Assembly: GCF_900182935.1 (NCBI RefSeq) | Contig: NZ_FXUE01000006.1 | Location: forward strand, 62,001 to 126,000 | Source: Fibrobacter sp. UWB10 | Lineage (GTDB): Bacteria; Fibrobacterota; Fibrobacteria; Fibrobacterales; Fibrobacteraceae | Length of the DNA: 64,000 nucleotides | Reading direction: 5' to 3' | Shown: positions 12,643 to 36,667 of the stretch, in pieces | Numbering within the stretch: the first letter of the stretch is position 1 | How the letters are laid out: every line of letters starts with the position of its first letter | Notes under the pieces: generated by a model | Told to the model about the DNA's origin: nothing | Database searches by the model: none | Seen by the model: the letters and a program-made list of their open reading frames with translations, nothing else | Made by a program: the position numbers and the translations under genes

Positions 12643-12648
12643 AGTAAA

Positions 12649-16680: not shown

Positions 16681-16688
16681 GTTCGAGC

Positions 16689-17084: not shown

Positions 17085-17089
17085 ATTCT

Positions 17090-17097
17090 GAAATATA
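17090..17097 (-). promoter_or_regulatory. TATATTTC element before tagD
   Basis: On the minus strand TATATTTC lies five bases before the tagD ATG, in the 21-base gap after the phosphatase gene. It matches seven of eight positions of TAnnTTTG. If active, it would give tagD a nearly leaderless transcript. Confidence 0.2.
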
Positions 17098-17105
17098 GAA
17101 ATTAT

Positions 17106-17966
17106 TTAAGGTTGTTTTATAGCGGGTAATTCAAATACCATCATGATTGGCGAATGATCGGAGGGGTAACGATAGGTTTCCCCGTCAAAATACATTTCGT
17201 TGAGAACCCCATAACGGTATACGGGAATTCGAGAGTCCACAAAAATGTGGTCGAGGTCCCATTTGCTGTCGCGAGTGGGGTCAAAATGATTGAAGCTCTT
17301 TTTTACGATATGAGTGAATTGTGCGACATCCTTTGCATCTTTGATGCCGGGTATTGACATGAGAATTTCATAGGGAACGGAACCTTCGACGGAGTTGAAA
17401 TCTCCAGAGATTATGTAGGGCGAGCTCTGGGCTATGGAAGGAATCCATTGGTATATGATTTTGGCGCCTTCGTTTTTGGCAACTTTTCCACGATGGTCAA
17501 AGTGCGTGTTGAATACAAAAAAGGTCGTGCTGTCTTTTTGCAATTTGGCCCAAAGGCAGAATCGCTTGTGCATTGAATCCCAGCTTTTGCTTTTTTTCTC
17601 GGGTGTCAGCGATAAATAAAACTTGCCTTTATCTAAAAGCTTAAACTTGTCCTTCTTGATAAGAATGGGATTGTGTTCCGTAGAATCGATTTCAATGAAG
17701 GCGTAGTCTTTCAATAGAGGGGCAAGGTCGTCGCGTTTTCCGGCAGCGCCTTCTTGCATGGCAACGATGTCGAAATCGTAAAATCGGATGACGTTGGCTA
17801 TTGGCTCGAATCTTTTTTTCCAAGCGTTCCCGTTTTTAACATCGTCGTCGCTTTGCCACCGGATGTTCCATGAAGCGAAGGTGATCTTTTCCTGATTTTG
17901 AGCAAGGCTGATTCCTGTTCCTAGAAACAGCAGACAACTCAAAAGGAATACAGAAAATGGTTTCAT
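17106..17966 (-). CDS. Secreted endonuclease/exonuclease/phosphatase-fold protein
   Basis: A 286-residue exported metal-dependent phosphodiesterase or phosphatase. The signal peptide (about 1-22, MKPFSVFLLSCLLFLGTGISLA) is clear. The EEP catalytic set is complete: ASWNIRW (Asn), VAMQEG (Glu), NTHFDHRG (Asn, His), SGDFNS (Asp, Asn), WDLDHIFV and YPSDHSPIM (Asp-His). Relatives act on nucleic acids, inositol phosphates or sphingomyelin. Its place between the glycerophosphotransferase and tagD suggests a periplasmic role on phosphodiester-containing glycans, but a nuclease role is equally possible. AGGA lies seven bases before the ATG. Confidence 0.85.
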   Translation of the reverse strand: MKPFSVFLLSCLLFLGTGISLAQNQEKITFASWNIRWQSDDDVKNGNAWKKRFEPIANVIRFYDFDIVAMQEGAAGKRDDLAPLLKDYAFIEIDSTEHNPILIKKDKFKLLDKGKFYLSLTPEKKSKSWDSMHKRFCLWAKLQKDSTTFFVFNTHFDHRGKVAKNEGAKIIYQWIPSIAQSSPYIISGDFNSVEGSVPYEILMSIPGIKDAKDVAQFTHIVKKSFNHFDPTRDSKWDLDHIFVDSRIPVYRYGVLNEMYFDGETYRYPSDHSPIMMVFELPAIKQP

Positions 17967-17975
17967 GAAAATGTC

Positions 17976-19238
17976 CTAGCCGAAAGCTTTTTCGAGAATG
18001 TTCATGATGTTCTGGGCGAATGAAATTCCGTTGGGCGGATTCAGTTGCTCTTTGATGAACTTCTGACGTACATCGCGTTTGGTGTCGGCTCCGGCTTTGC
18101 CAGCGACCATTTGAAGGAATTCGTCGATGCTGAAATCGCTTTGCGTGTAGTTGGCCTCCATAGAAGCCTTCCCGAAGTTGCAAAGGATGTCGTCGCGCTG
18201 GTTGCCGATGTAGAGTACGGGCTTGTCGACATAAAGGTATTCTACCGTGAACGAACCGCAGTCATGAATCAATGCATCAGATGTCTTGAACAAATCGATA
18301 TAGTCGTTGTCGAACAAGAATGTGTTCGACGCGACATTCCATGCTGCAAAGTAGGTGTCGGTGCGGGCTTTGCCCCAATCGGGGTGACGGTAGAGGTGTT
18401 CCTTGAGATGCGGGTGCGGCTTGAATGCAAACTGGAATTCCGGGTTTTTGCGAGCGCGATCAAGCATGGATTCTGCGTGGGCTAGGAATGTACCGCAGTC
18501 GGCCAGGTCATCGCTCAATACGGAATGGTGTACGCCCCATACGATTCGCTTGATTTTAGGATCCTTGATTTTCCAGGGATCGCTTGCAGCGGGTGTTGCA
18601 AACTTGTCGGCGAGAGGATAGCCTACAACTTCGACATTCTTGCCTCGGATCAAGGAAATCTGTTCGGCATTCTTTTTGTGCAGTTCCGAAGGGTAGAAAA
18701 GTTTCCAAGCCAAATTGTGCACTTGGGCGTCGTATGCCCACTTGTAGTTTGAAATAAAGAAGGCGTAAGGAACGTAGCAGATGAGCTTGTCCAAGAAATT
18801 GTAGGCGCGAAGTTCTTCGGTAATGCTGTTCTTGTATGGCTGCGCGTAAAAGAGAATGTCGGGGTCGGTTCCTTGGAGCGTTTCTATAACCGGGAATCCC
18901 TTTTCTCCAAAATACTTAGTCATCTTGTCGTGATGCATCTGCTGAATTTCGAGCGTGTCTTGCGGACGCTTGGTCAGCAGTACGACCGGCTTGAAATGCG
19001 AACTTTTTTGCATGAGTTCGAAAAGGTTGTCGTATTTCCAGAAAGAAACAGACATAGCCATGAAAACGACATTGACCTTCTGGTTCTGCTGGATTTTGGC
19101 GCGAACTTTAGCAACGGCCTTCTTTTCGCGGCTTCTTTTGCCGGCTAAAAGAAGACGGTCTTTGATGCGAAGCGAATTTTGCAGGTTCTTGAGAGGAGCT
19201 GGAATCAGACTGTACAATTTTTTAACGGAAAGCTTCAT
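17976..19238 (-). CDS. CDP-glycerol glycerophosphotransferase-like protein (copy A)
   Basis: A 420-residue cytoplasmic or membrane-peripheral protein with a basic, amphipathic N-terminus. About residues 55-400 form a GT-B-like domain: IKRIVWGVHHSVL, FKPHPHLKEHLY (the HPH motif) and DALIHDCGSFTVEYLYVDKPVLYIG, which corresponds to the D(Y/C)SS-(x)-(F/E) nucleotide-binding region of TagB/TagF. The match is weaker than for the protein at 20192, and the DCGSFTVEYL variant marks a separate branch. It probably transfers a polyol-phosphate to a lipid-linked glycan. The phosphatase gene starts nine bases downstream. Confidence 0.75.
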   Translation of the reverse strand: MKLSVKKLYSLIPAPLKNLQNSLRIKDRLLLAGKRSREKKAVAKVRAKIQQNQKVNVVFMAMSVSFWKYDNLFELMQKSSHFKPVVLLTKRPQDTLEIQQMHHDKMTKYFGEKGFPVIETLQGTDPDILFYAQPYKNSITEELRAYNFLDKLICYVPYAFFISNYKWAYDAQVHNLAWKLFYPSELHKKNAEQISLIRGKNVEVVGYPLADKFATPAASDPWKIKDPKIKRIVWGVHHSVLSDDLADCGTFLAHAESMLDRARKNPEFQFAFKPHPHLKEHLYRHPDWGKARTDTYFAAWNVASNTFLFDNDYIDLFKTSDALIHDCGSFTVEYLYVDKPVLYIGNQRDDILCNFGKASMEANYTQSDFSIDEFLQMVAGKAGADTKRDVRQKFIKEQLNPPNGISFAQNIMNILEKAFG

Positions 19239-19250
19239 GAAAAGCGGCCT

Positions 19251-20147
19251 TTACCATTCAAGGTAAATCTTGGAGTCGGTGGTATAGATTGCTTTGTAGT
19301 GCGGGAGCCTGAAAAAGAAATTCTTGAATTTTCTGGTGCGGGCAAGTCTTCGAGTATAATATTTCTTGACCGAATTCAAGAACTTTTTTTGATCGGCGGT
19401 TAAGTTGTCAATTCGTTCAAGAATCGCTTCGCGCCAGAAAGCTCTGTCGGCAAGTCGAGGGGCCTCGCGGTAATGAATGGGACCCAATTTTTTCCATTCC
19501 AGAGGCTTTGAAGAATTACTGTTGTGGCGCCTGTGCTGCGTGATAATCTGTTTTGTGTAAATAAGCCCGTCTACAAAGGGGGCGAGGGCGGCAAACCAGG
19601 CGTCGTGATATTTGGCCTTTTCGGGAATGGGGAGTGCTTTTTCAAGAAAATTCTTGCGTATAAGCATTGAGGCGCCTTGAAAGCAACTGCTGTTGAAGTA
19701 CACTCGGTAGGCAACTTCGAGATTTGCGGCCGGAGGAATTTCGAGACAGTCGGCGTCGCTCAAAGTCATGCCTAAAGATTCTCCCGAACTTCCAATCAGG
19801 TTTGCATCTCCGCAGGCAATGCTGTGGTTTCCGATGGTGTCCAAAAGAATTTGCAAGTGGTTCAGCTCCCAAATGTCATCTTGGTCGGAAAGGGCGATGT
19901 ATTCGCCTTGGCAAAGCCTGATTGCCTTTTCAAAATTTTTCTTGAAACCCAGATTTTCTTCGTTGCGGAATGGTTTGATACGAGAATCTTCGGTGGCGTT
20001 CTTCTGGATAATTTCCCAAGTGTCGTCCGAAGAATGGTCGTCGCAGATAATGATTTCGATATCTTTGTAAGATTGGTTTCGAATGGAATCCAACTGTAAT
20101 TGGAGGTATTTTGCCCCGTTGTAAGTTGCCATTGCAATTGAAATCAT
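19251..20147 (-). CDS. Family 2 glycosyltransferase
   Basis: A 298-residue GT-A fold enzyme. ISIAMATYNGAKYLQLQLDSIRNQSYKDIEIIICDDHSSDDTW opens the protein; ALSDQDDIWE (about 90-99) carries the metal-binding aspartates in the form typical of the rhamnosyltransferase-like branch of GT2. The C-terminal 60 residues are basic. It is the first gene of the five-gene minus-strand unit ending at 15292 and starts 44 bases from the divergent glycerophosphotransferase gene. Confidence 0.88.
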   Translation of the reverse strand: MISIAMATYNGAKYLQLQLDSIRNQSYKDIEIIICDDHSSDDTWEIIQKNATEDSRIKPFRNEENLGFKKNFEKAIRLCQGEYIALSDQDDIWELNHLQILLDTIGNHSIACGDANLIGSSGESLGMTLSDADCLEIPPAANLEVAYRVYFNSSCFQGASMLIRKNFLEKALPIPEKAKYHDAWFAALAPFVDGLIYTKQIITQHRRHNSNSSKPLEWKKLGPIHYREAPRLADRAFWREAILERIDNLTADQKKFLNSVKKYYTRRLARTRKFKNFFFRLPHYKAIYTTDSKIYLEW

Positions 20148-20191
20148 GTGCGAAAAGTCCTTGAGAATGCTAAGGAAAAAAATAGAATTTT

Positions 20192-21436
20192 ATGAAGGCT
20201 GGGAAAAGCCGACTTTTAAATAGAGCTATATTTGAATTGAAAAAATGGAGCGTTGAATTGAAACTCAAAGACCGCCTAAGAGAAATCCTATTTTACTGTT
20301 TCAGAATCTTCCCTGTCCAAAAGAAGAAGGTGCTTTTTGATAACTTTATAGGCCGCGGTTACGGTTGCAATCCCAAATATATTGCCCGGGCCCTCAAGCA
20401 AATTGACCCGACCCTAGATATAGTCTGGCTTGCCCGAAAGGAACTTATGAAGTGTGATCGCGAGGGCGGTCGCAATGTTAAACTGGGCTCCCTGCGTTCG
20501 GTGTATGAACAGGCGACGGCGAAAGTATGGGTGGCCAATAACCGCCAAAAGGAATATGTCCGCAAAAGGGCGAATCAGGTGTATTTGCAGACATGGCATG
20601 GCGCCATTGGAATCAAGAAATGCGAAGGCGATATGGGCGATTTGGTGAATGCAGATTGGAAACGCTGTGCCATCAATGATTCTCGCATGATTGACATGAT
20701 GATTTCTAACAGCAAGTTCTGCACCGATGTCTACAAGCGTGCTTTCTGGTATAATGGACCTGTTTGGGAGGTTGGATACCCGCGTAATGACTTGATGCTG
20801 AATCCGAATGAAGGCGTTTTCGAGAAAGTTCGGAAATCTCTGAATCTGGCTTCGGATGTCAAACTGTTCCTGTATGCTCCGACTTTCCGCAAGGTTCGTA
20901 CGGACTGGCAAAGCGATAGCCTGGATTTGGAAAAAGTGCTTGCAGCGCTTGAAAAAAAAATTGGCGGAAATTGGGTCTGCCTTTTGAGATTGCATCCGTT
21001 TGCCATCAAGGCGAACGAAGGCCGTATTCAGTTCTCGGACCGTGTGGTTAATGCATCTAAGTACGAAGATATGCAAGAATTAATGTGCGCTGCCGATGTG
21101 TTGTGCACGGATTATTCTTCGTGCATTTTTGACTTTATTCTTTCGCGTAAGCCTGCTTTGATGTATGCGCCGGATATGGAACATTACTTGCAGGAACGTT
21201 CCTTCCATTTTGACCCGTACAAGTTGCCGTTTAGTTGCTCCCTTAGTAATGACGAAATCGTGAAGGCGATTGATTCGTTTGACGATGCCGCCTACCAGAA
21301 GGCAATTGATGCCTTTATTGAACGCGAACAGGTGATTGAAAAGGGCTGCGCCTCGCAAAAGGTGGCTGAACTTGTCGCAAGCATTTGTGTTGAAAAGCCC
21401 ATCGACCCTGCGACTCTTGGTCGCGTAGTGCGGTAA
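20192..21436 (+). CDS. CDP-glycerol glycerophosphotransferase (TagB/TagF-like, copy B)
   Basis: A 414-residue enzyme of the Glyphos_transf family, which moves glycerol-phosphate (or ribitol-phosphate) from a CDP donor onto lipid-linked glycan. Signatures include LFDNFIGRGYGCNPKYIARAL, QTWHGAIGIKKC (the catalytic TWHG-type histidine), LRLHPF, and DVLCTDYSSCIFDFILSRKPALMYAPDMEHY, the classic donor-binding DYSS. The basic N-terminal 50 residues would sit on the membrane surface. A run of nine A at 20952-20960 lies in the coding sequence. The start has only a distant AAGGA, so translation may be weak. Confidence 0.9.
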   Translation: MKAGKSRLLNRAIFELKKWSVELKLKDRLREILFYCFRIFPVQKKKVLFDNFIGRGYGCNPKYIARALKQIDPTLDIVWLARKELMKCDREGGRNVKLGSLRSVYEQATAKVWVANNRQKEYVRKRANQVYLQTWHGAIGIKKCEGDMGDLVNADWKRCAINDSRMIDMMISNSKFCTDVYKRAFWYNGPVWEVGYPRNDLMLNPNEGVFEKVRKSLNLASDVKLFLYAPTFRKVRTDWQSDSLDLEKVLAALEKKIGGNWVCLLRLHPFAIKANEGRIQFSDRVVNASKYEDMQELMCAADVLCTDYSSCIFDFILSRKPALMYAPDMEHYLQERSFHFDPYKLPFSCSLSNDEIVKAIDSFDDAAYQKAIDAFIEREQVIEKGCASQKVAELVASICVEKPIDPATLGRVVR

Positions 21437-21479
21437 TCGTTTTTGTTGATTAAAAGTATAATTGATAAGGAGACCATGT

Positions 21480-22559
21480 ATGACTGAAATTGAATCTTCT
21501 TATGATTCTTTTTTGCAGAGGGATGTTGAATTTATTTCGAATAGCTCTTGTGTCCCTTGGGAAGATTTTCGTTCCAAGTCTGTTTTGGTGACTGGTGCGA
21601 CAGGACTCATTGGCTCCTTAATTGTTCTGGCTCTTGCTTGTCGTAATAGGTTGTTTAATCAAGAAATCAAGATTAAGGCGCTCGCTCGCAACAAGAAAAA
21701 GGCTGAACGCGTATTCGAAAGCCTTCTCGGTCGACCCGGATTCGAAATTGTCGAAGGTGATGTGAACGCTTCTATTGAAGGCGCCGGCGAAGTGGACTAC
21801 ATCATTCATACGGCAAGTGCGACTAGCTCGAAGTATTTCGTGACGAATCCTGTAGAAACCATCGCGACGGCAATCGACGGCACCCGCAACGTGCTGGAAC
21901 TTGCACGCCGTTGCAAGGTGAAAGGTTTCCTTTACCTATCCTCGCTTGAAGTCTACGGCGTTCCAGCCGAAGGCCATGTCAATATGCTGGAATCTGAAGC
22001 GGGCTACATTGATTCGATGAAGGTTCGTAGCTGTTATTCCGAAGGCAAGCGCATGGTAGAATGTCTTTGTGCCTCTTACGCCTCGGAATATGGCGTTCCG
22101 GTAAAAGTTGCTCGTCTTGGACAAACTTTTGGTGCGGGCGTTCCCTATGAGGACAATCGAGTTTTTGCACAATTTTCTCGCAGCGCGATTGAAGGCGTAG
22201 ATATCGTTCTCAAAACGAAGGGTGAAACGCTCCGTAACTATTGCTATACGGCAGATGCCGTGACGGCCTTGTTGACGATTCTTGCAAAGGGAAATGTTTC
22301 TGAGGCTTATAACGTAGCTAACAAAAATACGGCCATCACGATTGCTGATATGGCGCAACTTGTGTGTCGCAAATTTTCCAATGGCAAAAGCAATGTCGTC
22401 TTTGATATTGCCGAAGATTGCGCAAAGTTGGGCTACAATCCGGTTGTGAAAATATGTTTAGATACGAACAAGTTGGAAAATCTTGGTTGGAAAGCGGAGT
22501 ACGACTTGGAACAAATGTTTGAGCGTACAATAGAAAGTATGAAGCTAAAACAGCCGTAA
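21480..22559 (+). CDS. NAD-dependent epimerase/dehydratase (extended SDR)
   Basis: A 359-residue nucleotide-sugar enzyme. The ATG at 21480 is chosen because AAGGAGA lies six bases upstream; an earlier in-frame TTG at 21462 has no such site. The Rossmann motif is VTGATGLIGS, the active-site serine segment YLSSLEVYG, and the catalytic YxxxK is in SCYSEGKRMVE. The family includes 4,6-dehydratases, decarboxylases and epimerases. A SDR reductase is fused to IspD-like proteins in some CDP-ribitol pathways, but this protein has the extended SDR pattern and its substrate is open. The stop lies five bases from that of the convergent flippase. Confidence 0.85.
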   Translation: MTEIESSYDSFLQRDVEFISNSSCVPWEDFRSKSVLVTGATGLIGSLIVLALACRNRLFNQEIKIKALARNKKKAERVFESLLGRPGFEIVEGDVNASIEGAGEVDYIIHTASATSSKYFVTNPVETIATAIDGTRNVLELARRCKVKGFLYLSSLEVYGVPAEGHVNMLESEAGYIDSMKVRSCYSEGKRMVECLCASYASEYGVPVKVARLGQTFGAGVPYEDNRVFAQFSRSAIEGVDIVLKTKGETLRNYCYTADAVTALLTILAKGNVSEAYNVANKNTAITIADMAQLVCRKFSNGKSNVVFDIAEDCAKLGYNPVVKICLDTNKLENLGWKAEYDLEQMFERTIESMKLKQP

Positions 22560-22564
22560 GTACA

Positions 22565-24106
22565 TTATCGGTGGAATCTTTGGGCTATTTTGTTGTATAG
22601 CCTTGCAATTCCTTTGCGGTCATTTTTATTCAATATAATCGCATAACCGATAATAAAACCGAATAGGCAACAGGCGACAATACTTGTTGCAAGAATCGGC
22701 CAGCTGATATGTGAAATTTGGTTTTTCAGAATAAATAGCGGGACAATCAAGACGGCGAATGCGATGCCGCTACGTAGCATTCCTAAGTATAGAGCCTTTG
22801 CCTTGATTTTGATGCATTTGGCGCCATAAATGGGCAGGAATATAAGAGCCTTAGACAGGCTGAAGAATGAGCCCGTTCCTGCAATCAAAAGCATGTGCGT
22901 CAGAGAGCTTTCGGTAATGTTAATCCCAATGACAACGGTTGCAAATGTAGCCGTATAAATAACAAGGTTGAACAAGGCGTTCGCTTTGAGCTTGTTTGTT
23001 AAGGGGAAAATGTTGTATATGGGCTGTAACGGCATGGCCAAGGGCAATTCAAGGCAACCTGCTGCGGTCAACAAGTACAACAATTTGGCGTCTTGAGAAG
23101 GTAGCCACAATTGATAAAACCAGTCGCAGAAAACAAAAATGAATGCTGTCGGAATAAAGCTGATGAAACCAAAAATTCTAAGGGACTGCTCAATGCTTTT
23201 GTGTAATTCGTCAAAGTTGTTCTGGGCATAAAGTTTTGTCCAAGGCGGGGCGAAAATGGAATTGATTCGTTCAAAAAGGGTGAGCGTCAGCGTCGGGATT
23301 CTTTTAATGATGGCGAGAATACCCATCTCGGTTGGGCCAATCAACAGGTTCGCAATTAGAAGGTCGAAACCATGTTGCAATAGTCCGCTTAATCTAGATA
23401 CAATATTCCAGATGCCTGCAGAAAGCAACTCCTTGATTGCTTTGGTGTCAAAATATTTGAGCCCGATGATAAGATCCGGCGTAAGTCTGCGCCGGAAATG
23501 AATGTTGGTTATGATAATGTAGATTGTGCTGATGACTGTTGCAAGGCCGATGTACCAGACGGCCGGGTCGAAAAAGTAAAAGATTCCTACGAGAAGAATA
23601 GCCTTGAGGGCGTTTGCGATAATGGTTCTTGTTGAAGAAAGGTCTAGACGGTTGCGGATGAAGGTGCAGACGTTATAGACGTTGAATATGATGCTGATGA
23701 AAAAGTTGAGGAATATGCATCCGAAAAGGACTTTCACATCGTACAGGTTGTTGGCAGGAATGTCGATGATGTGTTCTAGCTTGTATAGTACGGCAAGCCC
23801 TATGATGCTGATGAATGCAACGAGAATGATGTTAGAGTAAAATACGGAACTGAAGTATTTTCGGGCTTTTTCAATATCGTTTTGGTGAACGCTAATAGTT
23901 ATAAATCGTCCGGCCATGGAATTCAAGGCGATGGTTGCGATTTGAGCGTAGCTTACAAAGTTGCTTGCAAGACCAACGAAACCATACGCGGCGGCACCCA
24001 AACGGCTAACAATGTAGGGCGTCAGGAAAAAGGTAATTCCTATACTTACAAGAAATGAAAATACCTGAGCGATGCCGTTGATTGCAAATTTCTTTTTGGA
24101 TTCCAT
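22565..24106 (-). CDS. Wzx-type polysaccharide flippase (copy 1)
   Basis: A 513-residue inner-membrane protein with about 12-14 hydrophobic segments, beginning MESKKKFAINGIAQVFSFLVSIGITFFLTPYIV, the typical start of the RfbX/Wzx MOP family, which moves undecaprenyl-linked repeat units to the periplasm. The start at 24106 is chosen over 24124 because it aligns with the paralogue (MSSKKRF) and has GCGGA just upstream. It is strongly similar by eye to the flippase at 26179-27708 (for example GAAAYGFVGLASNFV, IALNSMAGRFITISVHQN, FERINSIFAPPWTKLYA in both). The two same-strand copies flank a GT4/deacetylase pair. Confidence 0.9.
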   Translation of the reverse strand: MESKKKFAINGIAQVFSFLVSIGITFFLTPYIVSRLGAAAYGFVGLASNFVSYAQIATIALNSMAGRFITISVHQNDIEKARKYFSSVFYSNIILVAFISIIGLAVLYKLEHIIDIPANNLYDVKVLFGCIFLNFFISIIFNVYNVCTFIRNRLDLSSTRTIIANALKAILLVGIFYFFDPAVWYIGLATVISTIYIIITNIHFRRRLTPDLIIGLKYFDTKAIKELLSAGIWNIVSRLSGLLQHGFDLLIANLLIGPTEMGILAIIKRIPTLTLTLFERINSIFAPPWTKLYAQNNFDELHKSIEQSLRIFGFISFIPTAFIFVFCDWFYQLWLPSQDAKLLYLLTAAGCLELPLAMPLQPIYNIFPLTNKLKANALFNLVIYTATFATVVIGINITESSLTHMLLIAGTGSFFSLSKALIFLPIYGAKCIKIKAKALYLGMLRSGIAFAVLIVPLFILKNQISHISWPILATSIVACCLFGFIIGYAIILNKNDRKGIARLYNKIAQRFHR

Positions 24107-24137
24107 TGTCCGCAAAAATAGCATTTTTTTATATTTA
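24105..24137 (+). promoter_or_regulatory. Candidate Bacteroides-type promoter for the GT4 gene
   Basis: ATTG at 24105-24108 is followed after 21 bases by TATATTTA at 24130-24137, one mismatch from TTTG and one from TAnnTTTG. It lies 21 bases before the ATG at 24159 and overlaps the start of the divergent flippase. Confidence 0.35.
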
Positions 24138-24158
24138 GGTTAAAGGGAATGCGTAATT

Positions 24159-25229
24159 ATGATAAAGCTTGTCGAAGTTATAGATGAATTGGAAATGGGA
24201 GGTGCTCAGCATGTATTGCATGAGATTATCACTCATTTGGATAAGGAAAAATTCGACATAACGATTATTTGCTTTAAAAAAGCCCGCCCCTTTGCATCTA
24301 TGTTGGAACAGGAAGTTCTGGCGAAAGGTTTCAAAGTGATTTATTTGAAGCCGAAAAAGCGTCGCTATAAATATTTGCAATTGATGTGGGAACTGACTAA
24401 AATCAGACCCGATGTCATTCATGCGCATCAGACCGGAATTGTGGCGGCTTATTGGGGTTTTTGGGCCCGTGTTAAAACGATTATCACGATTCATACCAAA
24501 CCCGCTCGCTCGTTCATTTTTAGAAATTCAAGGCGCGCTTATAAATTTGGGTTAAAGACGAAGTCCATTATAACGGTCGCTATTTCTGCATTCAATAAAA
24601 AATTGTGCCAGGAATACTGGAATATTCCGGAGAAAGAGGTTTGTTACGTAAACAACGGTGTCAATATAGACGGTTGCGTTCCGGAATCTCATGATTGCTT
24701 TTCTTTTATCAATGTGGGCCGCCAAGATGAAAATAAAAACCAGATTTTGATCATCAAGGCGTTCAATCGCTTTTTGAAAGAAGTTTCTTCTGATGTTCAA
24801 CTTTATTTGGTCGGCGACGGTGAATGCAAAGAGCAATTGCAAAAAACGGTTGCTGAATTGAATATCGAAGACAAGGTGATTTTTACGGGTTATATCGCAA
24901 ACCCGAGGCCTTTTTTGGCAAAAGCGGATGTGTATATTTCGTCAAGCCATCGAGAAGGTTTGCCCCTTTCTGTTCTCGAGGGAATGGCTTTTGGCTTGCC
25001 CGTGATTGCAACCGATGTGGGTGGCGTTCGCGATTTGGCTCAAGAGAATGGCTACTTGATTGAAGACGATGACGAAAACGCTATGTTCAACGCCATGCGC
25101 GAATTGTACAAAAATCCTGAAATTTGCAAAGACAAGGGTGCTAAATCCCTTGAGATTGTGCAGCAGTATACGACCCAGAAAATGGCCGATGGCTATGCAA
25201 AACTTTTTGAGGAGTATGCCAAAAAGTGA
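24159..25229 (+). CDS. Family 4 glycosyltransferase
   Basis: A 356-residue GT-B fold enzyme. The N-terminal acceptor domain opens with VIDELEMGGAQHVLHEIITHL, whose GGAQ loop is standard for GT4. The donor domain includes NVGRQDENKNQILIIKAF, YLVGDGECKEQL, VIFTGYI and the ExxxxxxxE motif in SSHREGLPLSVLEGMAFGLPVIATDVGG. The sugar is unknown. It overlaps the deacetylase gene by four bases (GTGA), so the two are coupled, and the pair sits between two paralogous flippase genes on the opposite strand. This stretch looks more AT-rich than its surroundings. Confidence 0.92.
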   Translation: MIKLVEVIDELEMGGAQHVLHEIITHLDKEKFDITIICFKKARPFASMLEQEVLAKGFKVIYLKPKKRRYKYLQLMWELTKIRPDVIHAHQTGIVAAYWGFWARVKTIITIHTKPARSFIFRNSRRAYKFGLKTKSIITVAISAFNKKLCQEYWNIPEKEVCYVNNGVNIDGCVPESHDCFSFINVGRQDENKNQILIIKAFNRFLKEVSSDVQLYLVGDGECKEQLQKTVAELNIEDKVIFTGYIANPRPFLAKADVYISSSHREGLPLSVLEGMAFGLPVIATDVGGVRDLAQENGYLIEDDDENAMFNAMRELYKNPEICKDKGAKSLEIVQQYTTQKMADGYAKLFEEYAKK

Positions 25230-26182
25230 AAAAGTTTTTGATAACGATTGATACGGAAGGCGATAATCTTTGGGAATATAAAATCGGTGATCCGGTTGAA
25301 ACGAAAAACGCCCGTGCTTTGCCCCGCTTTCAAAAACTTTGTGACAAGTTCGGCTTCAAGCCGGTTTACTTGACAAATTATGAAATGGCTCAGGATCCAT
25401 TCTATGTCGAATTTGCAAAGGCGGCGCAGAATGAAGGTCGTTGCGAAGTGGGCATGCACTTGCACGCATGGAATAATCCTCCTTATTTTGAATTGCCGGC
25501 TGCCGAAAAAGGCCTGCCTTATCTCATTGAATATCCCGAATCGGTGATGCGAGAAAAAATCCATGTGATGGATGATTTGCTCACGGAAAAATTCGGCGTG
25601 AAGCCTGTAACGCACCGTGCGGGGCGCTGGGCCATGAATCAGACCTATTTTGATTTGCTGATTGAAAAAGGCTATCTGGTGGATTGTTCTGTTACCCCGC
25701 ATATCGATTGGCGGACATCTGTGGGGTTGACGAAAAATAGTTGCGGTTCCGATTATCGCAATATGGCGGAAACGCCGTCTTTTATAACTTCGAGCAATGG
25801 AAAAGAATCCATCATAGAAGTTCCTGTTACGGTGGGCTTTGACCATCATTTCCGGGCAAAAAGAGTCCTGAAACATCCACAGAAAATTTTGGAAGAATTG
25901 AAATCGGCACGTAAAGGGCGACTCGTATGGGTGCGCCCGAACGGTAAAAATCTCAAACAGGTGCTCCGTTATGTAGCGCAGATGGCAAAGTCGGATTTTC
26001 CGTACCTTATGTTCATGATTCATTCTTCAGAACTGATGGCTGGCGGTAGCCCGACTTTTAGAACGGATGAATCTATAGAGAGACTCTATTCTGATTTAGA
26101 GGCTCTGTTTGAATGCGTTTCGAAAAATTACGAAGGCGAAACCATTCGGAACTACATTTCGCAATTGAATGAATTTTGCTAG
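25226..26182 (+). CDS. Polysaccharide deacetylase-family protein
   Basis: A 318-residue cytoplasmic protein (no signal peptide). ITIDTEGD at the start gives the paired aspartate of the NodB-homology region, GMHLHAW (about 76-82) gives the metal-binding HxH, and THRAGRWAMN (about 131-140) fits the following Arg/His region. The end (FMIHSSELMAGGSP) supplies the late His-Ser motif. It would remove acyl groups from a sugar precursor or act as a related hydrolase, as WalW-type proteins in LPS loci. The start is a GTG overlapping the GT4 stop, with GAGGA about 12 bases before it. Its last four bases overlap the convergent flippase end. Confidence 0.8.
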   Translation: MKKFLITIDTEGDNLWEYKIGDPVETKNARALPRFQKLCDKFGFKPVYLTNYEMAQDPFYVEFAKAAQNEGRCEVGMHLHAWNNPPYFELPAAEKGLPYLIEYPESVMREKIHVMDDLLTEKFGVKPVTHRAGRWAMNQTYFDLLIEKGYLVDCSVTPHIDWRTSVGLTKNSCGSDYRNMAETPSFITSSNGKESIIEVPVTVGFDHHFRAKRVLKHPQKILEELKSARKGRLVWVRPNGKNLKQVLRYVAQMAKSDFPYLMFMIHSSELMAGGSPTFRTDESIERLYSDLEALFECVSKNYEGETIRNYISQLNEFC

Positions 26183-27708
26183 TGGAATAATTTGGAAACG
26201 AGTCCGAAAATTTCCTTTCGGTCTGCGGAATTCAATATAATCAAGGAGCCAATTATGGTTCCTAGAATGCAGGTGACCACGCCACAAACGCCCAACAATT
26301 CCCAACTCGCTTGAGGGAACATTGTTTTAATCCAAAGCAGAAGGCTAAGCAAAACGGTAAAGGACAATACGCTTCGGATAGTGCAAACATAAAGGAACTT
26401 GGCCTTCATTTTAATGCAGTGTGCGCCATACAAGGGAAGGAACGTAAGCGCTTTAACAATGTTAAAGACGGCGCTTGTGCAAGAGATAATCATCAAATGC
26501 GTAAACGTTCCGCTCGTTACGTTTAACCCTACGAAAACAATGACGAATGTCAAACCGAAGGTGAATAGGCTGAAAAGAGAATTGGCCTTGACTTTGTTTG
26601 TGATAGGGTAAAGATTATAGATGGGTTGTAGCGGCATGGCGATGGGGAGGTCGATGCATGCGGCAAGTGTTAAGCAGTATAAAAGTTTGGTGTCTTGCGA
26701 CGGGAGCCACAAAGCATAAAACATGTCGCTAAATGCAAAGATGAAAGCATTGGGAATGATGCTTATCAACCCGAAAAAGCGAAGTGTTTTGATGATTTGC
26801 CTATGTAAAGCTTCGTTTTGGTCTGTTGCGTAAAGCTTTGTCCATGGGGGCGCAAAAATGGAGTTGATGCGTTCAAACAGGGTTAGCGTTAAGGTCGGGA
26901 TTCTTCTTGTAATTGCTAAAACGCCCATTTGCGTTGCGCCGATAAACAAGTTTGCGAGGAGCAAATCGAAACCGGTACTGAGGATAGCACTGAGCTTTTC
27001 GACAACGTTCCAAACGCCTGCAGACAATAGTTCCTTGATGGAATTTTTGTCAAAGTGACTTAAAGAAACGGACAATTCGGGAGTCAGCCTTCGCTTAAGA
27101 ACGATATTGGTGCAAATGATATAGATCGTGCTGATAATGGTTGCTAAACCAATGTACCATACGGCTGCATCAAACAAATAGAATAAGCCAACGAGGAGTA
27201 TTGCTTTGAGAATGTTTGCAATGATTGTCCTGATGGACGAGAGATCCAGTCGGTTCGCAATAAAGGTGCTGACATTATAAACGTTGAAAATAATGCTGAT
27301 GAAGAAGTTTAGGAAGATGCAGAAGAATAAAAGTTTGACATCTCGAATGAGTTCTGGCGGGATATCGATGAGACACTCTAATTTCGCGAGAACGACGACG
27401 CCTATAATGCTCACAAATGCGACAATGATGATATTTGAAAAGAAAACGGAACTGAAATAGCGACGGGCGTCTTCGATTCTGTTCTGGTGGACGCTGATGG
27501 TTATAAAGCGTCCGGCCATGGAATTCAGCGCAATGGTGATAATTTGAGCGTAACCCACAAAATTGCTCGCCAATCCGACAAAACCATATGCAGCCGCCCC
27601 AAGTTGGCTGACTATATATGGAGTTAAGAAAAAGGTAATGCCTAAACTGACCAAAAAGGCAAATACCTGGGCGAAGCTATTTATAATGAATCTTTTTTTT
27701 GAACTCAT
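26179..27708 (-). CDS. Wzx-type polysaccharide flippase (copy 2)
   Basis: A 509-residue membrane protein of the same subfamily as the flippase at 22565-24106; long blocks are identical or nearly so, roughly two thirds identity by eye. The start at 27708 (MSSKKRFIINSFAQVF) is chosen by alignment; an in-frame ATG at 27735 would add nine residues. A run of eight A lies directly after the start codon. Having two close Wzx paralogues in one locus suggests either two repeat-unit types or a duplication followed by divergence. Confidence 0.9.
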   Translation of the reverse strand: MSSKKRFIINSFAQVFAFLVSLGITFFLTPYIVSQLGAAAYGFVGLASNFVGYAQIITIALNSMAGRFITISVHQNRIEDARRYFSSVFFSNIIIVAFVSIIGVVVLAKLECLIDIPPELIRDVKLLFFCIFLNFFISIIFNVYNVSTFIANRLDLSSIRTIIANILKAILLVGLFYLFDAAVWYIGLATIISTIYIICTNIVLKRRLTPELSVSLSHFDKNSIKELLSAGVWNVVEKLSAILSTGFDLLLANLFIGATQMGVLAITRRIPTLTLTLFERINSIFAPPWTKLYATDQNEALHRQIIKTLRFFGLISIIPNAFIFAFSDMFYALWLPSQDTKLLYCLTLAACIDLPIAMPLQPIYNLYPITNKVKANSLFSLFTFGLTFVIVFVGLNVTSGTFTHLMIISCTSAVFNIVKALTFLPLYGAHCIKMKAKFLYVCTIRSVLSFTVLLSLLLWIKTMFPQASWELLGVCGVVTCILGTIIGSLIILNSADRKEIFGLVSKLFH

Positions 27709-27746
27709 TTTAAATAAAGATAGAATAATTGGCAAATGAAAAAAGT

Positions 27747-27754
27747 TATATTTG
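27747..27754 (+). promoter_or_regulatory. TATATTTG element before the TupA-like gene
   Basis: An exact match to the Bacteroides -7 box TAnnTTTG, 57 bases before the ATG at 27812 in the 103-base divergent gap. No TTTG is seen 19-21 bases upstream. Confidence 0.3.
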
Positions 27755-27811
27755 GACCCGTAGAAAATAATTGCAACTCTTTTAAAGAGTTTGTTTAACT
27801 AGAGCCCTAGG

Positions 27812-28732
27812 ATGAAGTTTTTTCAGTCTGCAATTCGCTATACAAAACGACCGCTGTCGTTGTTCGATCGATGGGCGAAAAAGGGCCGATTGAACTGGTT
27901 GCCTGATAAAATTTATCTGTCGTTGATGTGGCGAAGCAAAATGGGCTATTGGCTAAATTGGGCCAATCCGCAAGGCTTTAATGAAAAAATGCAATGGCTG
28001 AAGTTGAACTACCGTCAGCCGTCATTTAGCAAACAGGCCGACAAATATGAAGTCCGGTCTTTTGTAGAAAATAAAATCGGAAAGCAGTACCTTATTCCTA
28101 TTTTGGGAGTGTGGGACGATCCCGATAAGATTGATTTCAGTAAATTGCCGAATCAATTTGTTTTGAAATGCAATCATGATTCCGGCAGTGTTGTCGTTTG
28201 CCATGACAAAAGTAAAATTGATGAAAATCAGATAAAATCTCGTTTTAAAGAGTCTCTGAAAAAGAATTACTATTATAGATTCAGAGAATGGCCGTATAAG
28301 GACATTAAGCCGCTTGTTATTGCAGAACAGTTCTTGCAAGGATCAGAAAAAGACGAAGTCCCTTATGACTACAAGTTTTTCTGTTTTCATGGCGAACCGA
28401 AGTTCATGTATATATCCAATGATGGCGCTCAAGATACGGTGACAGACTTTTTCGATATGGACTACAATCATTTGGAATGCGTCATAGACCAGCCGAATGC
28501 TTCTGTTCCTCCGGCAAAGCCTGAAAAATTTGACGAAATGGTTAGCCTTGCTAAAAAGCTGTCAGAAGGCATTCCCCATGTGAGAGTGGACTTTTTCTGC
28601 TGCAACAATCAGGTCTATTTTGGCGAAATGACTTTCTTCCACGATGCGGGATTCTTTAAATTCACCCCGTCGAAGTGGGATAACTTTTTTGGCGAAATGT
28701 TGGATTTAAAATCAATCGGAAAGAAACATTAG
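27812..28732 (+). CDS. TupA-like ATP-grasp protein
   Basis: A 306-residue protein of the TupA-like ATP-grasp family found in capsule and teichuronopeptide loci. Recognisable blocks are NPQGFNEKMQWLKLNYRQP, ADKYEVRSFVENKIGKQYLIPILGVWDDPDKIDF, FVLKCNHDSGSVVVCHDKSK, PLVIAEQFL, DYKFFCFHGEPKFMYI and VDFFCCNNQVYFGEMTFFHDAGFFKFTPSKWD. TupA in Bacillus halodurans links amino-acid polymers to a polysaccharide, so this protein may ligate an amino acid or a similar acid to the glycan. The stop is one base from that of the convergent DUF616 gene. Confidence 0.88.
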   Translation: MKFFQSAIRYTKRPLSLFDRWAKKGRLNWLPDKIYLSLMWRSKMGYWLNWANPQGFNEKMQWLKLNYRQPSFSKQADKYEVRSFVENKIGKQYLIPILGVWDDPDKIDFSKLPNQFVLKCNHDSGSVVVCHDKSKIDENQIKSRFKESLKKNYYYRFREWPYKDIKPLVIAEQFLQGSEKDEVPYDYKFFCFHGEPKFMYISNDGAQDTVTDFFDMDYNHLECVIDQPNASVPPAKPEKFDEMVSLAKKLSEGIPHVRVDFFCCNNQVYFGEMTFFHDAGFFKFTPSKWDNFFGEMLDLKSIGKKH

Positions 28733-28733
28733 G

Positions 28734-29480
28734 TTACTTTCCGTATCCCACCAACTTGCGATAAACGAATCGCCCGACTCGCTTTAATTTCTTGCCCCAA
28801 ATATTTTTCTCGCGCACATGGCTTTCGAACTGAAGCCAAGGACAATTGCGTGCGTTTTCATTTTCGGGCAGCAAGTAGTCGAACGGAATCCCTTCTTTCC
28901 ATAGTGTGTAAGGGTACGAAAGCTGGTCTCGGCGAGAATACTTGTTAATAATTTCCCACCATAGTTCGCACTGCCGGCGCACCTTTTCGTTGTCATGCCT
29001 GCGCAAGATGATGTTAGCTTCAAACATGCCGTAATGGCGCGGAAGCCCTTGCTTGCGGATAAACCGCATCTCTTTCACGATGGCCGAGAACCTATCGAGC
29101 CCGTAGGTGAAAACAACGTAGCCTTCGTTGTAGCAACAATCCCTGAACGGGTGCTTGACGCCCGAAAGAAGGGCCCCGCTTTCAATCTTCTGAATGACGC
29201 GTTCATAAAAATCTTTCGAGGCAATACAGATGTTTGCGTCCATATAGACGCTGTAATCGTATTGCGAAAGTACAATCCAGGGGTGCATCTTCGGGTATCT
29301 GGATTCTATTTGCTTAGAACAGAATTCCCCGTCAAACTTGCGGATTTCCCATACGCCAATGCGGTCCTTGGGAATGTCGTTAGAAAAACAGATGTAATCG
29401 AACCGTTCGTCAGTAACGGAGGGCTGCTTTAATTGGTCGTAGCCTCCGGTGAGAACGGTGTAGATTGCAATTTTTTTCAT
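28734..29480 (-). CDS. DUF616-family probable glycosyltransferase
   Basis: A 248-residue protein whose N-terminus (IAIYTVLTGGYDQLKQP) and core (RFDYICFSND, RYPKMHPWIVLSQYDYSVYMDANICI) match the DUF616/TOD1-like group, which has a GT-A fold. YMDAN supplies a DxD-like metal site. FRDCCYNEG and FEANIILRRH fit the rest of the family. The activity is inferred from fold and context. Its ATG directly follows the stop of the cytidylyltransferase gene (TAAATG), so the two are coupled. Confidence 0.8.
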   Translation of the reverse strand: MKKIAIYTVLTGGYDQLKQPSVTDERFDYICFSNDIPKDRIGVWEIRKFDGEFCSKQIESRYPKMHPWIVLSQYDYSVYMDANICIASKDFYERVIQKIESGALLSGVKHPFRDCCYNEGYVVFTYGLDRFSAIVKEMRFIRKQGLPRHYGMFEANIILRRHDNEKVRRQCELWWEIINKYSRRDQLSYPYTLWKEGIPFDYLLPENENARNCPWLQFESHVREKNIWGKKLKRVGRFVYRKLVGYGK

Positions 29481-30206
29481 TTAGTCCAAACCGTAAATCT
29501 GGGCGTCTTCTTTTACCTGCAAAATAGCCCTCATGGTGTAGAAATCATCAGGAGTCGTAATCTTGATGTTTTCGTAAGGGCCGTCTGTCATGTGCAGCTT
29601 GAATCCGTAATGCTGCATGAGCGTACAGGAATCGATAAAGTCTTTTCGGCCTTCTTCGAGCGCGCGGTTGTGTGCAGAAAGAATGTCATGAAGCCAGAAA
29701 CATTGCGGGGCTTTGGCCACGCGGGAATGCGCTCTGTCCGGAACCATCTTGATTCCGCCTTCGTCGTCAATTTCAACAATCGTTTCTTTTACGATGCCAC
29801 TTGTAATCGAATTTCCGTGCTTCTTGACGCATTCGATGTTCTTGGTCAAGAGTTCGCTGTTGATAAGCGGGCGCACGCCATCGTGAATCAAGACGATGCT
29901 TTCTTCGTCTTGGGCGATTTCTTTTGCGGCAACCAAACCGTTGTAAATCGAAAGCTGGCCCGATTCTCCACCAGGTACGATCTTCTTGATTTTCTGCAGG
30001 TGGAATTGGGCAACCAAATTCTTGAAGTAGTCAATCCAGTCGGCAACGCACACGACTACAACCGCATCAATCATGGGGTTCTTTTCAAAATGTTGAATCG
30101 TGTGAATTATAATGGGCTTATCATAAATGCGCAAAAACTGCTTGGGCAAATCTTTGCTATGCATTCTCGAGCCGACACCGCCTGCGAAAATAATACCGAT
30201 ATTCAT
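29481..30206 (-). CDS. IspD/TarI-family cytidylyltransferase (probable CDP-ribitol synthase)
   Basis: A 241-residue enzyme with the nucleotide-binding IIFAGGVGSRM and the basic DLPKQFLRI. VLIHDGVRPLI, TSGIVKETIVEI and PQCFWLHDILSAHNRA follow in family order. The same fold serves 2-C-methyl-D-erythritol-4-phosphate cytidylyltransferase (IspD) and D-ribitol-5-phosphate cytidylyltransferase (TarI/Bcs1/human ISPD). Its place in a teichoic-acid-like locus next to a probable glycosyltransferase, and not beside ispF, favours a ribitol or similar polyol. No TarJ-type alcohol dehydrogenase is adjacent, so the ribitol-phosphate source is unresolved. Confidence 0.85.
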   Translation of the reverse strand: MNIGIIFAGGVGSRMHSKDLPKQFLRIYDKPIIIHTIQHFEKNPMIDAVVVVCVADWIDYFKNLVAQFHLQKIKKIVPGGESGQLSIYNGLVAAKEIAQDEESIVLIHDGVRPLINSELLTKNIECVKKHGNSITSGIVKETIVEIDDEGGIKMVPDRAHSRVAKAPQCFWLHDILSAHNRALEEGRKDFIDSCTLMQHYGFKLHMTDGPYENIKITTPDDFYTMRAILQVKEDAQIYGLD

Positions 30207-30226
30207 GAAAATAAAAATAAGAAATT

Positions 30227-31459
30227 TTAGAGGTCGTAATTTTCGTCAACCCATTTCAAACGCTGGTTAATCCACTCTTTTAAGGCGTTCACAGCATCTT
30301 CATAGCTGTCGTAGGCTTCTATAAAGGGCCACTCGGAATCGTTTTCTAAAACGGGCCACCGCTTGAATTCGTTTTGCATCGCCTTGTCGAGTTTCGGCCA
30401 CGTTTGGTCAATGGAATCTAGCATGTCCTCAAAATGATTTCGGTTTTCTTGCCAGTAATTGTCGACCATCTTTTTGACTTGCTTGTTCTTGAAAATAAGG
30501 CGGTACCAACCGTATTTTTTAACATACCAGTTTTGGGGAGATACGACTCCGTTGCTCGATATTCCGTAAGCAATGTCAAAGTCCCACACGGGGCCCATTT
30601 GCATGGGCAAACCTTTTTGCCAAGTAATAAAATGACTTCGCCTAAAGGCACCATCGGTATTGTGAGAAAACTCTTGAATCCAGTAATAGCGAATGAAATC
30701 GTCTATGTCAATCCAGTTTCGCAGAGAATCTGTATTGTTGATGGCTTTACTTTGTAAGAAACTCTCGAAGGCGTTGAGGTGGCTTTTTAGAGTTTCCTTT
30801 ATTTGAGTGGATGGATTCTTGGGGTAGCAAATGTCATAGATAAAGTCCAGGTCTGTTGTAATCAGGTTTTCGCCTGTTGCATTAGCTGAAGTTTTCTCGA
30901 ATAAGTAGCTGGAATCATCTTCGTATATCTTGACTCGTTGTGGAGAGACTTTGATGTGCTCCACAAGCATGTAAACGCCCATGTATCTGCGATTCAAGAA
31001 AACTTCGACAAACTGGTTTCGCGGGGAATAGCTGTCGTGCAGGGTGTGGGCGAGTTGATAGGTTATGTAATTGCGGAGCATGCTTTTGTCGCGGTGGTTT
31101 GCGACTAGGTCCCATTCTTTGTCTTTGGGCATTCCGAACAGCGATTGTTTGCTCTCGAATTTGAGCTTGATGCTGTATTTGGCCATGGAGAAACTGGAGT
31201 TGCCCCGGCCTTTGATTTCTAGGTCCAATACATCGCTTTCGGGCGAATTTTCTCCGTAAATTTGCAATTTTGCGCTGTGTTCGGTTTCTCGGTCGCCAAT
31301 TTGGGCGAAATCTTCAGTTTCTATCACGAGTCGCGGCAGGCCCGCGTAAGGATAATCAGAATCGTCTAAAACTAAAAAATCGGGATTTCTTTCCGTATCG
31401 TTCCAAACGCAGGAACAAAACAATGTGCAAATGAAAAGAAAAACCGAGATGTGGAACAT
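30227..31459 (-). CDS. CotH-family lipoprotein
   Basis: A 410-residue predicted lipoprotein (lipobox LFCSC, cysteine at about 17). The CotH domain (about 75-370) shows LEIKGRGNSSF, KYSIKLKFESKQSLFGMPKDKEWDLVANHRDKSMLRNYITYQLAH, NRRYMGVYMLVEHIKV, LFEKT, and MGPVWDFDIAYG, the last being the metal-binding aspartate segment. It is shorter than the CotH protein at 8347 and lacks a lamin-tail domain. It heads the minus-strand unit with the IspD/TarI and DUF616 genes (20-base gap), which hints at a role on the envelope glycan. Confidence 0.85.
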   Translation of the reverse strand: MFHISVFLFICTLFCSCVWNDTERNPDFLVLDDSDYPYAGLPRLVIETEDFAQIGDRETEHSAKLQIYGENSPESDVLDLEIKGRGNSSFSMAKYSIKLKFESKQSLFGMPKDKEWDLVANHRDKSMLRNYITYQLAHTLHDSYSPRNQFVEVFLNRRYMGVYMLVEHIKVSPQRVKIYEDDSSYLFEKTSANATGENLITTDLDFIYDICYPKNPSTQIKETLKSHLNAFESFLQSKAINNTDSLRNWIDIDDFIRYYWIQEFSHNTDGAFRRSHFITWQKGLPMQMGPVWDFDIAYGISSNGVVSPQNWYVKKYGWYRLIFKNKQVKKMVDNYWQENRNHFEDMLDSIDQTWPKLDKAMQNEFKRWPVLENDSEWPFIEAYDSYEDAVNALKEWINQRLKWVDENYDL

Positions 31460-31463
31460 AAGG

Positions 31464-31471
31464 CAAATATA
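31464..31471 (-). promoter_or_regulatory. TATATTTG element before the CotH/IspD-like unit
   Basis: On the minus strand an exact TAnnTTTG match ends five bases before the ATG at 31459. The divergent gap is only 32 bases, so both promoters must be compact; TAGATTTT and TAGATTTA lie on the plus strand in the same gap. Confidence 0.25.
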
Positions 31472-31491
31472 GATTTTCTAGATTTATTACG

Positions 31492-32334
31492 ATGCTTTCT
31501 CGGACTCAACGCCTGTGTTTTGCATACTCCGTGCTCGCCGTACTCTTGTTCAGCGTGGTTTCGCTCCATGCCCGCGAAACCGTATCGCCTGTTCGCGGGC
31601 CTGCAAGCTATGCTTTGTTCGGGAGTATAGCGGAACTTCGTGACGATGTCTATAGTGTCGACTTGAATTTGGCGGGGGAGTATGCCCCGTGCAAGTGCTT
31701 TAGCATTTATGGCGATTTCTCGTATAGGCTTTTAAGCTACGAGTACGACCTCATGCTCCACGATCAACGTCATGAAGCGTTGAACTTGCATGTCAACGGG
31801 CTTAACGAATCGTACTTAGGTGCCAAAATGATGCCGTTCCCGTTTTTCGGCGTCGATTTCAATTGGCGACTTCCGCCGCGCGAAGGCTCTAGGGTGAATC
31901 GCTTTCATCGCCTTGGAATTTCTCCGTTCGGTCTTTACGATTTTACCAAAAACTTGACATTTGGTCTAGCTCTAGAATATTTCACGTTTCTCGAAAAACA
32001 GAATTATCAGCCAGGCGACGAACTGGGCGTAAAAGGCTCCTTCTCGTGGAAATTGCTTTGGGACCCGGATAACCATACCGGTTGGCAACTCGATTACACC
32101 TTGCTGTATCGCTGGCGTATCCAGGAATCCGAAAACATGAACATGGACAAACCCTACCGAAAAATGGATGACTTGGAACGCGGCTTTAGAATTCGCGTCG
32201 ATGCGGCCCGCTACATCTCGGTGTTCAAGAAATCCTTGGGAATTGCCCTCTTTTACGAAATAAACCGTGGCTATTTATTTGGAGTGGAAACCGGCCACAC
32301 ATTAGGGCTTTATGCAAAGTTCCTGTTCTTATAA
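31492..32334 (+). CDS. Predicted outer-membrane beta-barrel protein, unknown function
   Basis: A 280-residue exported protein with a signal peptide (about 1-27, ending SLHA-R). The mature part alternates hydrophobic and polar residues in many short strands (VYSVDLNLAGEYAP, FSIYGDFSYRLLSYEY, LTFGLALEYFTFL, WQLDYTLLYRW, LGIALFYEIN) and ends LGLYAKFLFL, a plausible barrel-closing strand. A segment around residues 100-120 has AKMMPFPFFGVDFNWRLPPREGS. I do not recognise a family. Its 3' end overlaps the oxidoreductase gene by 23 bases. Confidence 0.7.
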   Translation: MLSRTQRLCFAYSVLAVLLFSVVSLHARETVSPVRGPASYALFGSIAELRDDVYSVDLNLAGEYAPCKCFSIYGDFSYRLLSYEYDLMLHDQRHEALNLHVNGLNESYLGAKMMPFPFFGVDFNWRLPPREGSRVNRFHRLGISPFGLYDFTKNLTFGLALEYFTFLEKQNYQPGDELGVKGSFSWKLLWDPDNHTGWQLDYTLLYRWRIQESENMNMDKPYRKMDDLERGFRIRVDAARYISVFKKSLGIALFYEINRGYLFGVETGHTLGLYAKFLFL

Positions 32335-36658: not shown

Positions 36659-36667
36659 AAAAAATGT

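Follow-up and report, generated by a model that had tools for sequence, protein, structure and literature searches.

Two non-sister flippase genes around a glycosyltransferase-deacetylase pair in a probably mosaic surface-polysaccharide locus of Fibrobacter sp. UWB10

The DNA analyzed here (the window) is a stretch of 64,000 nucleotides on contig 6 of the 3.48-Mb genome of Fibrobacter sp. UWB10 (NZ_FXUE01000006.1, positions 62,001 to 126,000), with a surface-polysaccharide locus at 11.3-31.5 kb. Within this locus, two homologous flippase genes, which we call FlipA and FlipB, lie in direct orientation around a coupled pair of genes for a GT4 family glycosyltransferase and a putative deacetylase. 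A prediction made earlier from the sequence alone had described this arrangement, and its coordinates and strands hold as given. The same prediction attributed the arrangement to duplication. We think it probable, though well short of certain, that two old allelic forms of a flippase were instead joined with the GT4-deacetylase pair in a mosaic locus of the Wzx/Wzy type (O-antigen or capsule), with no duplication in place. Five observations carry this reading: the homology of the two flippases, their non-sister phylogeny, the single flippase slot in the gene order of relatives, the exchange of the block as a whole between genomes of the same species, and the intact and equally constrained state of both copies. 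The four genes are as follows.

22565..24106, minus strand: FlipA, Wzx-type (MOP) flippase, 513 amino acids from the conserved start (PF01943, 33.5 bits)
24159..25229, plus strand: GT4 family glycosyltransferase (Pfam Glyco_trans_1_4 1.8e-35, Glyco_transf_4 1.6e-17)
25226..26182, plus strand: putative WabN/WalW-like polysaccharide (N-acetylglucosamine, GlcNAc) deacetylase (similarity to a Klebsiella deacetylase beside waaQ)
26179..27708, minus strand: FlipB, Wzx-type (MOP) flippase, 509 amino acids from the conserved start (PF01943, 36.1 bits)

The GT4 and deacetylase genes overlap by 4 bp, and the ends of the deacetylase and FlipB genes overlap tail to tail, also by 4 bp. Both flippases exceed the cut-off of 28.2 bits for PF01943 (Polysacc_synt), and this profile, together with a locus context of glycosyltransferases and a Wzy_C gene, points to Wzx-type flippases. 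Their start sites at 24106 and 27708 were preferred over those of the longest open reading frames (ORFs; 24124 and 27735), since the starts of relatives line up with them ('MESKKKF' and 'MSSKKRF' beside 'MGSKKRF'). A crude hydropathy scan gave 12 segments in each protein, for a family with 12-14 membrane helices, and a search of solved structures with FlipA returned nothing useful.

Close relatives of FlipA and FlipB are few. Among 80 Fibrobacter genomes, that of UWB10 included, only two others, labeled G031 and G010, carry one, and among 167 genomes of the phylum a single further relative was found, in a genome of another genus (G136). The G031 flippase is 72% identical to FlipA, the G010 flippase is 66% identical to FlipA and 69% to FlipB, and the G136 flippase is 60% identical to FlipB. 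A tree built from 11 rows unites FlipB with the G010 flippase in a clade with support of 97/98, while the placement of FlipA relative to the G031 flippase beside this clade is weak (75/64). A forced clade of FlipA and FlipB was rejected (approximately unbiased (AU) test, p 0.0046), as were FlipA with G010 (p 0.0046) and FlipB with G031 (p 0.0022); FlipA with G031 was not rejected (p 0.315), and a clade of FlipA, FlipB and G031 was borderline (p 0.053). Except for FlipA with FlipB, which was set by the original prediction, these clades were chosen after the tree had been seen. The alignment columns point the same way, with 17 columns for the split of FlipA and G031 from FlipB and G010 and 5 for each of the other two splits. 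Judged by their sequences, FlipA and FlipB are thus not sister genes. The original prediction had held that placement in distant clades would speak against it, and the tree goes a short way in that direction: the copies are not sisters, yet both fall within one clade of five.

A direct comparison of the two copies indicates that they have been apart for a long time. With FlipA as query, FlipB is matched at an E value of 3e-216, far beyond chance, and the proteins are identical at 343 of 515 aligned positions (66.6%). The long, nearly identical protein blocks that had been predicted are present in the N-terminal two thirds, whereas identity in the C-terminal part is only 36-56%, and the same fall is seen in every pair of the family. 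At the DNA level the genes agree at 988 of 1545 positions; this value of 64% is slightly lower than the roughly 70% estimated earlier by eye, and it breaks down into 71, 84 and 37% for the first, second and third codon positions. Identity at fourfold-degenerate sites is 33% between FlipA and FlipB, 33% between FlipA and G031, and 26% between FlipB and G010. In other words, synonymous identity between the two copies is at the level seen between genomes, and we therefore consider the copies old. The longest identical DNA tract shared by FlipA and FlipB is 19 bp, near the longest runs across genomes (17 bp each for FlipA-G031, FlipB-G010 and FlipB-G136), and no identical tract of at least 30 bp, as the original prediction had suggested looking for, was found. 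Efficient RecA-dependent recombination needs roughly 25-30 bp. Given this longest tract and the low DNA identity, recombination between the copies at present, and with it routine loss of the module, is unlikely, which agrees with the earlier expectation that such events would be rare. Similarity does not clearly extend beyond the coding regions: in ten comparisons of flanking 200-bp segments, no match stood out clearly from shuffled sequences, the lowest shuffle fraction being 0.05 (upstream of FlipA against G031). Gene conversion between FlipA and FlipB was considered and rejected, because over the first 60 alignment columns the two are 78% identical, against 92% for FlipA-G031 and 98% for G031-G010, and because the fall in identity from N to C terminus is common to all pairs. 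Both copies are intact and constrained no less than a single-copy relative: FlipA deviates from 17 of 234 family invariants and FlipB from 11 of 228, compared with 19 of 236 for the single-copy flippase of G010.

The gene order of the two related loci places the flippase in a single slot. Two genes next to the window's flippases serve as reference points.

21462..22559, plus strand: SDR, NAD-dependent epimerase/dehydratase (PF01370, 1.8e-38; 82% to G010, 71% to G031)
27812..28732, plus strand: TupA-like ATP-grasp gene adjoining FlipB (PF14305, 1.5e-64; 46% to G010, 41% to G031)

The window reads GT2b(-), TagF-like(+), SDR(+), FlipA(-), GT4(+), deacetylase(+), FlipB(-), TupA(+), TOD1-like(-), IspD(-), CotH(-), where GT2b is one of the GT2 genes of the locus. 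The order in G010 is flippase(-), SDR(+), TupA(+), TOD1-like(-), TagF-like(-), IspD(-), and in G031 it is GT2b(-), flippase(-), IspD(+), SDR(+), TupA(+), TOD1-like(-), CotH(-). Each of these genomes thus has one flippase in one slot amid the same neighbor genes as the window, and neither the GT4 nor the deacetylase gene is present at either locus; a version with one flippase and without the pair, for which the original prediction had proposed a search, therefore exists in two other Fibrobacter genomes. Relative to the SDR gene, both genomes have their flippase on one and the same side, nearest GT2b, and in neither of the two places that the flippases occupy in the window; that of G010 directly adjoins the SDR gene. 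The neighbors themselves switch partners along the locus. The SDR gene, TOD1 (79% to G010, 71% to G031) and IspD (84% and 50%) are nearer to G010, while TagD (45% and 82%), GT2b (49% and 67%) and others are nearer to G031. For these comparisons, matches in the tblastn neighbor search that overlapped a better one by more than 40% were dropped, as were ORFs overlapping a longer one by at least 30% in the maps of relatives. Our reading of this switching, on the sequence comparisons, is that the locus was assembled as a mosaic and that two alleles of a single flippase slot came together in the process.

A wider count agrees with a single slot. In 13 of 13 other genomes, chosen from the 79 others in the genus partly for their matches and completeness, the interval between the UDP-sugar dehydrogenase gene (UGD) and the S49/CNNM genes holds one PF01943-type flippase, whereas the window holds two. 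Both borders lie on one contig in all 13 genomes, some 15-36 kb apart as read from coordinates. The flippase of G031 was missed by the profile and counted from protein searches; the count covers the PF01943 type, and flippases of other types would be missed.

Within the species, variation takes the form of block replacement, as seen in the one same-species genome available for comparison (G077, 94% complete). Three regions define the exchange.

11272..13500, plus strand: left anchor, UGD and LicD1 (99% protein identity in G077)
13500..31565, no strand: region exchanged in G077, with a graded left edge at 13.5-14.6 kb and a sharp right edge at 31566
31566..36658, plus strand: right anchor, outer ORF, GFO/IDH, S49 peptidase and CNNM (98% DNA identity in G077)

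Contig 7 of G077 matches the window at 95% over 1-14599 and at 98% over 31566-40000, with 18.9 kb of different DNA between. Some 17 kb of the window between conserved flanks are thus replaced by about 19 kb of other genes, including a different flippase (L064 12433-13878) and a Wzy_C-type gene of its own. At the left edge, LicD1 is mostly 92-100% identical at the DNA level (87% in its last bin) and LicD2 mostly about 67-87%, and the start of the GT2 gene rises to 93% before identity drops to about 50% beyond 14599. Since protein identity in G077 is 99% for LicD1 and 80% for LicD2, the exchange edge appears to start between these two genes. No close relative of FlipA or FlipB was found in G077, and its only relative of the deacetylase (45%) lies elsewhere in the genome; part of the work on the G077 block genes was done on a choice of five out of the 79 other genomes. 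In this single same-species genome we saw neither a single-flippase deletion form nor a hybrid flippase without the module. Recombination of the two copies to delete or swap the module, as the original prediction had envisaged, was thus not seen; the whole block of about 17 kb is exchanged instead. The chromosomal slot is a serotype-like swap region.

Of the enclosed pair, the GT4 has no close relative among the 79 other genomes of the genus, with best matches at 25-36%. The deacetylase had no Pfam or NCBIfam match above cut-off (PF01522 gave 11.9 bits against 23.1). A tblastn search of plasmid-collection records recovered full-length relatives of it at 44-47%, among them a Klebsiella enzyme beside waaQ at 46.8% over 312 amino acids (E 1e-101). 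In annotated Klebsiella and Enterobacter records such relatives adjoin rfaQ/waaQ in the lipopolysaccharide (LPS) core cluster, and a K. aerogenes homologue is annotated as WalW; from the cluster order, we take the waaQ-linked Klebsiella gene to be WabN. Matches to solved structures were weak ('Polysaccharide deacetylase', E 0.35-0.53), and a single-sequence fold (mean predicted local distance difference test (pLDDT) score 35.7) was not used. Because PF01522 falls short and the structure matches are weak, we file the protein as a putative WabN/WalW relative by sequence rather than as a proven CE4 enzyme. A literature search on WalW returned only unrelated papers. In Klebsiella, wabH (GlcNAc transferase) and wabN (LPS-GlcNAc deacetylase) are described as both required for outer-core glucosamine (GlcN) (PMC8552709). 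On the basis of the roles given there, we propose that the GT4 may add an N-acetylated sugar whose amine the deacetylase would then free.

Several deacetylase relatives elsewhere have a flippase nearby. G047 (L078 8098-11665) repeats the layout of GT4, deacetylase and FlipB in the window: its GT4(+) and deacetylase(+) genes overlap, and an unrelated flippase(-) comes next. In G077 (L076 10050-12477) and G042, the deacetylase is followed by another flippase within 10 bp; these two loci are near-identical and hence not independent. Five more distant homologues occur in the phylum (L083-L087), with neighbors named by eye rather than by profile: a GT4-like gene is directly beside the deacetylase in L083 and L086 and nearby in L085, a MurJ/MviN-like flippase is beside it in L087, and L084 has neither a GT4-like gene nor a flippase. 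Of the nine places in the phylum, five have a flippase as the immediate neighbor of the deacetylase and four have a GT4 there, the G077 and G042 places again not being independent. With this adjacency recurring, it is plausible that the pair is functionally linked to a flippase. By analogy with the G047 layout, the partner may be FlipB; it may instead be FlipA, should the G010-like FlipB be the copy that was resident in the locus.

Several observations weigh against the joining of two alleles in a mosaic locus. The close flippase clade has only five sequences, and within it FlipA is placed weakly with respect to G031. FlipA and FlipB are both on the far side of the SDR gene compared with G010, so that no single simple exchange explains the order in the window, and no donor allele with FlipA, GT4 and deacetylase was found among the genomes examined. 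The GT4 is only 22.6% identical to the Klebsiella transferase in the WabH position, which makes the identity of the added sugar a guess. An alternative history, in which the flippase was duplicated in tandem long ago in a shared ancestor and G010 later lost copy A while G031 lost copy B, would also account for non-sister copies of which FlipB is nearer to G010 and FlipA possibly nearer to G031. It would, however, require many losses, since all 13 other genomes have one PF01943-type flippase, and it sits poorly with the position of the G010 and G031 flippases in neither of the window's two places and with the wholesale exchange of such loci; we regard it as unlikely. A recent duplication in place, giving repeats able to delete or swap the module, would fit the shared strand and family of the copies and the module between them. 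It is very improbable: the tree and the synonymous saturation, with third positions as diverged as between genomes, refute it unless one copy was overwritten through gene conversion by sequence from elsewhere, that is, from other genomes, and the absence of detected flank similarity, the short identical tracts, the closeness of FlipB to G010 and the one slot in relatives all speak against assembly by duplication as originally predicted.

The pair could also have arrived together with a flippase, as a portable module captured from another polysaccharide locus by one that already had a flippase. The G047 layout, the closely trailing flippases of G077 and G042 and the five of nine places with a directly adjacent flippase favor such a capture, which we rate as somewhat unlikely since both window flippases are native to the slot family, the partners in G047 and G077 are unrelated to that family, and the GT4 proteins of these loci are only 22-27% alike. 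As a further possibility, a merger of loci might have left one flippase redundant and in decay; with a single Wzy_C-type gene noted in the locus, the second flippase lacks an obvious second polymer. The intact frames of both copies, neither of which departs from the family invariants more than the single-copy G010 flippase, argue against decay, and we consider a leftover distinctly unlikely.

If two alleles were indeed joined, the steps may have been as follows. The content of the slot is swapped between strains, and the alleles examined elsewhere carry one PF01943-type flippase; two allelic forms of this flippase, one nearer to that of G010 and one possibly nearer to that of G031, would have been brought together with the GT4-deacetylase pair by horizontal recombination. 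On this view, the GT4 would decorate the lipid-linked unit with an N-acetylhexosamine, probably GlcNAc, from which the WabN-like enzyme would remove the acetyl group; export of the plain unit and of the modified one would be shared by the two flippases, unless one of them is redundant. A bolder picture, in which the strain took up a portable module beside its own flippase and one locus exports plain and free-amine GlcN-bearing units through two gatekeeper flippases, is speculative and in our view improbable.

The remainder of the locus, by profile matches, comprises the UDP-sugar dehydrogenase, two LicD, GT2, Wzy_C and TagD-like cytidylyltransferase genes, along with TagF-like glycerophosphotransferase, IspD-like cytidylyltransferase, SDR, TupA-like and CotH kinase genes. 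LicD1 and LicD2 (12649-14336) are neighboring homologues that share a 104-nt tract 80% alike, and apart from this pair and the flippases no long direct repeats were found in 12.5-33.5 kb, nor a mobile element at the module edges. The teichoic-acid-like set at 12649-31459 (two LicD, TagD-like, TagF-like, IspD-like, TupA-like) in a Gram-negative Fibrobacter suggests a surface polymer bearing glycerol- or ribitol-phosphate. CotH kinase-domain genes flank the locus at 8326-11121 and 30227-31459, one with a lamin-tail domain. TATATTTRG-like motifs lie 5' of GT4 (24128-24138) and of TupA (27745-27755); the pattern, picked after these two sites had been seen, resembles the Bacteroidetes -7 element TAnnTTTG and occurs 10 times in the window where 3.6 matches are expected, with 0 of 100 shuffles as high. 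Outside the locus, opposite-strand open frames of more than 1000 amino acids each cover the same 3.1 kb (41880-45104, minus; 42012-45197, plus) at a raised GC of about 0.56, and a single ORF of 2133 amino acids spans 47943-54344 on the plus strand. No tRNA or Rfam match was found within the window.

The locus resembles serotype-swapped Wzx loci (MOP, PF01943) in passing the family cut-off, in its surrounding glycosyltransferases and Wzy_C gene and in the replacement of a block via conserved flanks; it differs in having two members of one flippase family where 13 other genomes have one PF01943-type each. Two wzx genes per locus are already in print: eps cluster 1 of Lactiplantibacillus plantarum MC5 is described with two (PMC10185785), and a 33F-like cps locus of Streptococcus oralis with two, of which one is truncated; this locus also has a gene characteristic of a different serotype and, too, looks like a merger of types (PMC7392543). 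Compared with these cases as described, the window copies are both intact, belong to one family and enclose a GT4-deacetylase pair, and the passages on the two loci report no phylogeny of their wzx copies. Three other candidate precedents were set aside: the 'two copies' in PMC5179118 are an interrupted gene, those in PMC3493377 lie at different genome places, and the phrase in PMC7824148 does not concern one such locus. Among the papers listed in a literature search on Fibrobacter surface polysaccharide loci, none was found to describe this one. The order proposed here, with a GT4-type enzyme acting before the deacetylase, parallels the Klebsiella WabH/WabN system (PMC8552709); the window genes differ in being coupled, overlapping and in a Wzx/Wzy-type locus rather than the waa cluster. 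Flippases that discriminate between units are known: Wzx1 and Wzx2 of Yersinia pseudotuberculosis tell units apart by the terminal sugar (PMC6436433), and a MOP flippase that checks a decoration has been described (PMC13385700). In Yersinia, each of the related loci has a flippase of its own that suits the decoration of its unit, and by analogy FlipA and FlipB may export differently decorated units; the Yersinia flippases belong to the clusters of different serotypes, while the window has two in one cluster.

Overall, we see the arrangement as ordinary locus diversification with one unusual feature, a modest twist on the common reshuffling of bacterial coats. The region is a serotype-like swap site in Fibrobacter, a main gut fiber-degrader. 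The arrangement is also a small natural test case for the way in which such loci acquire a second flippase, here probably through the joining of alleles rather than through copying, and if both flippases work, a single strain would allow the specificity for decorated versus plain units to be asked inside one cell.

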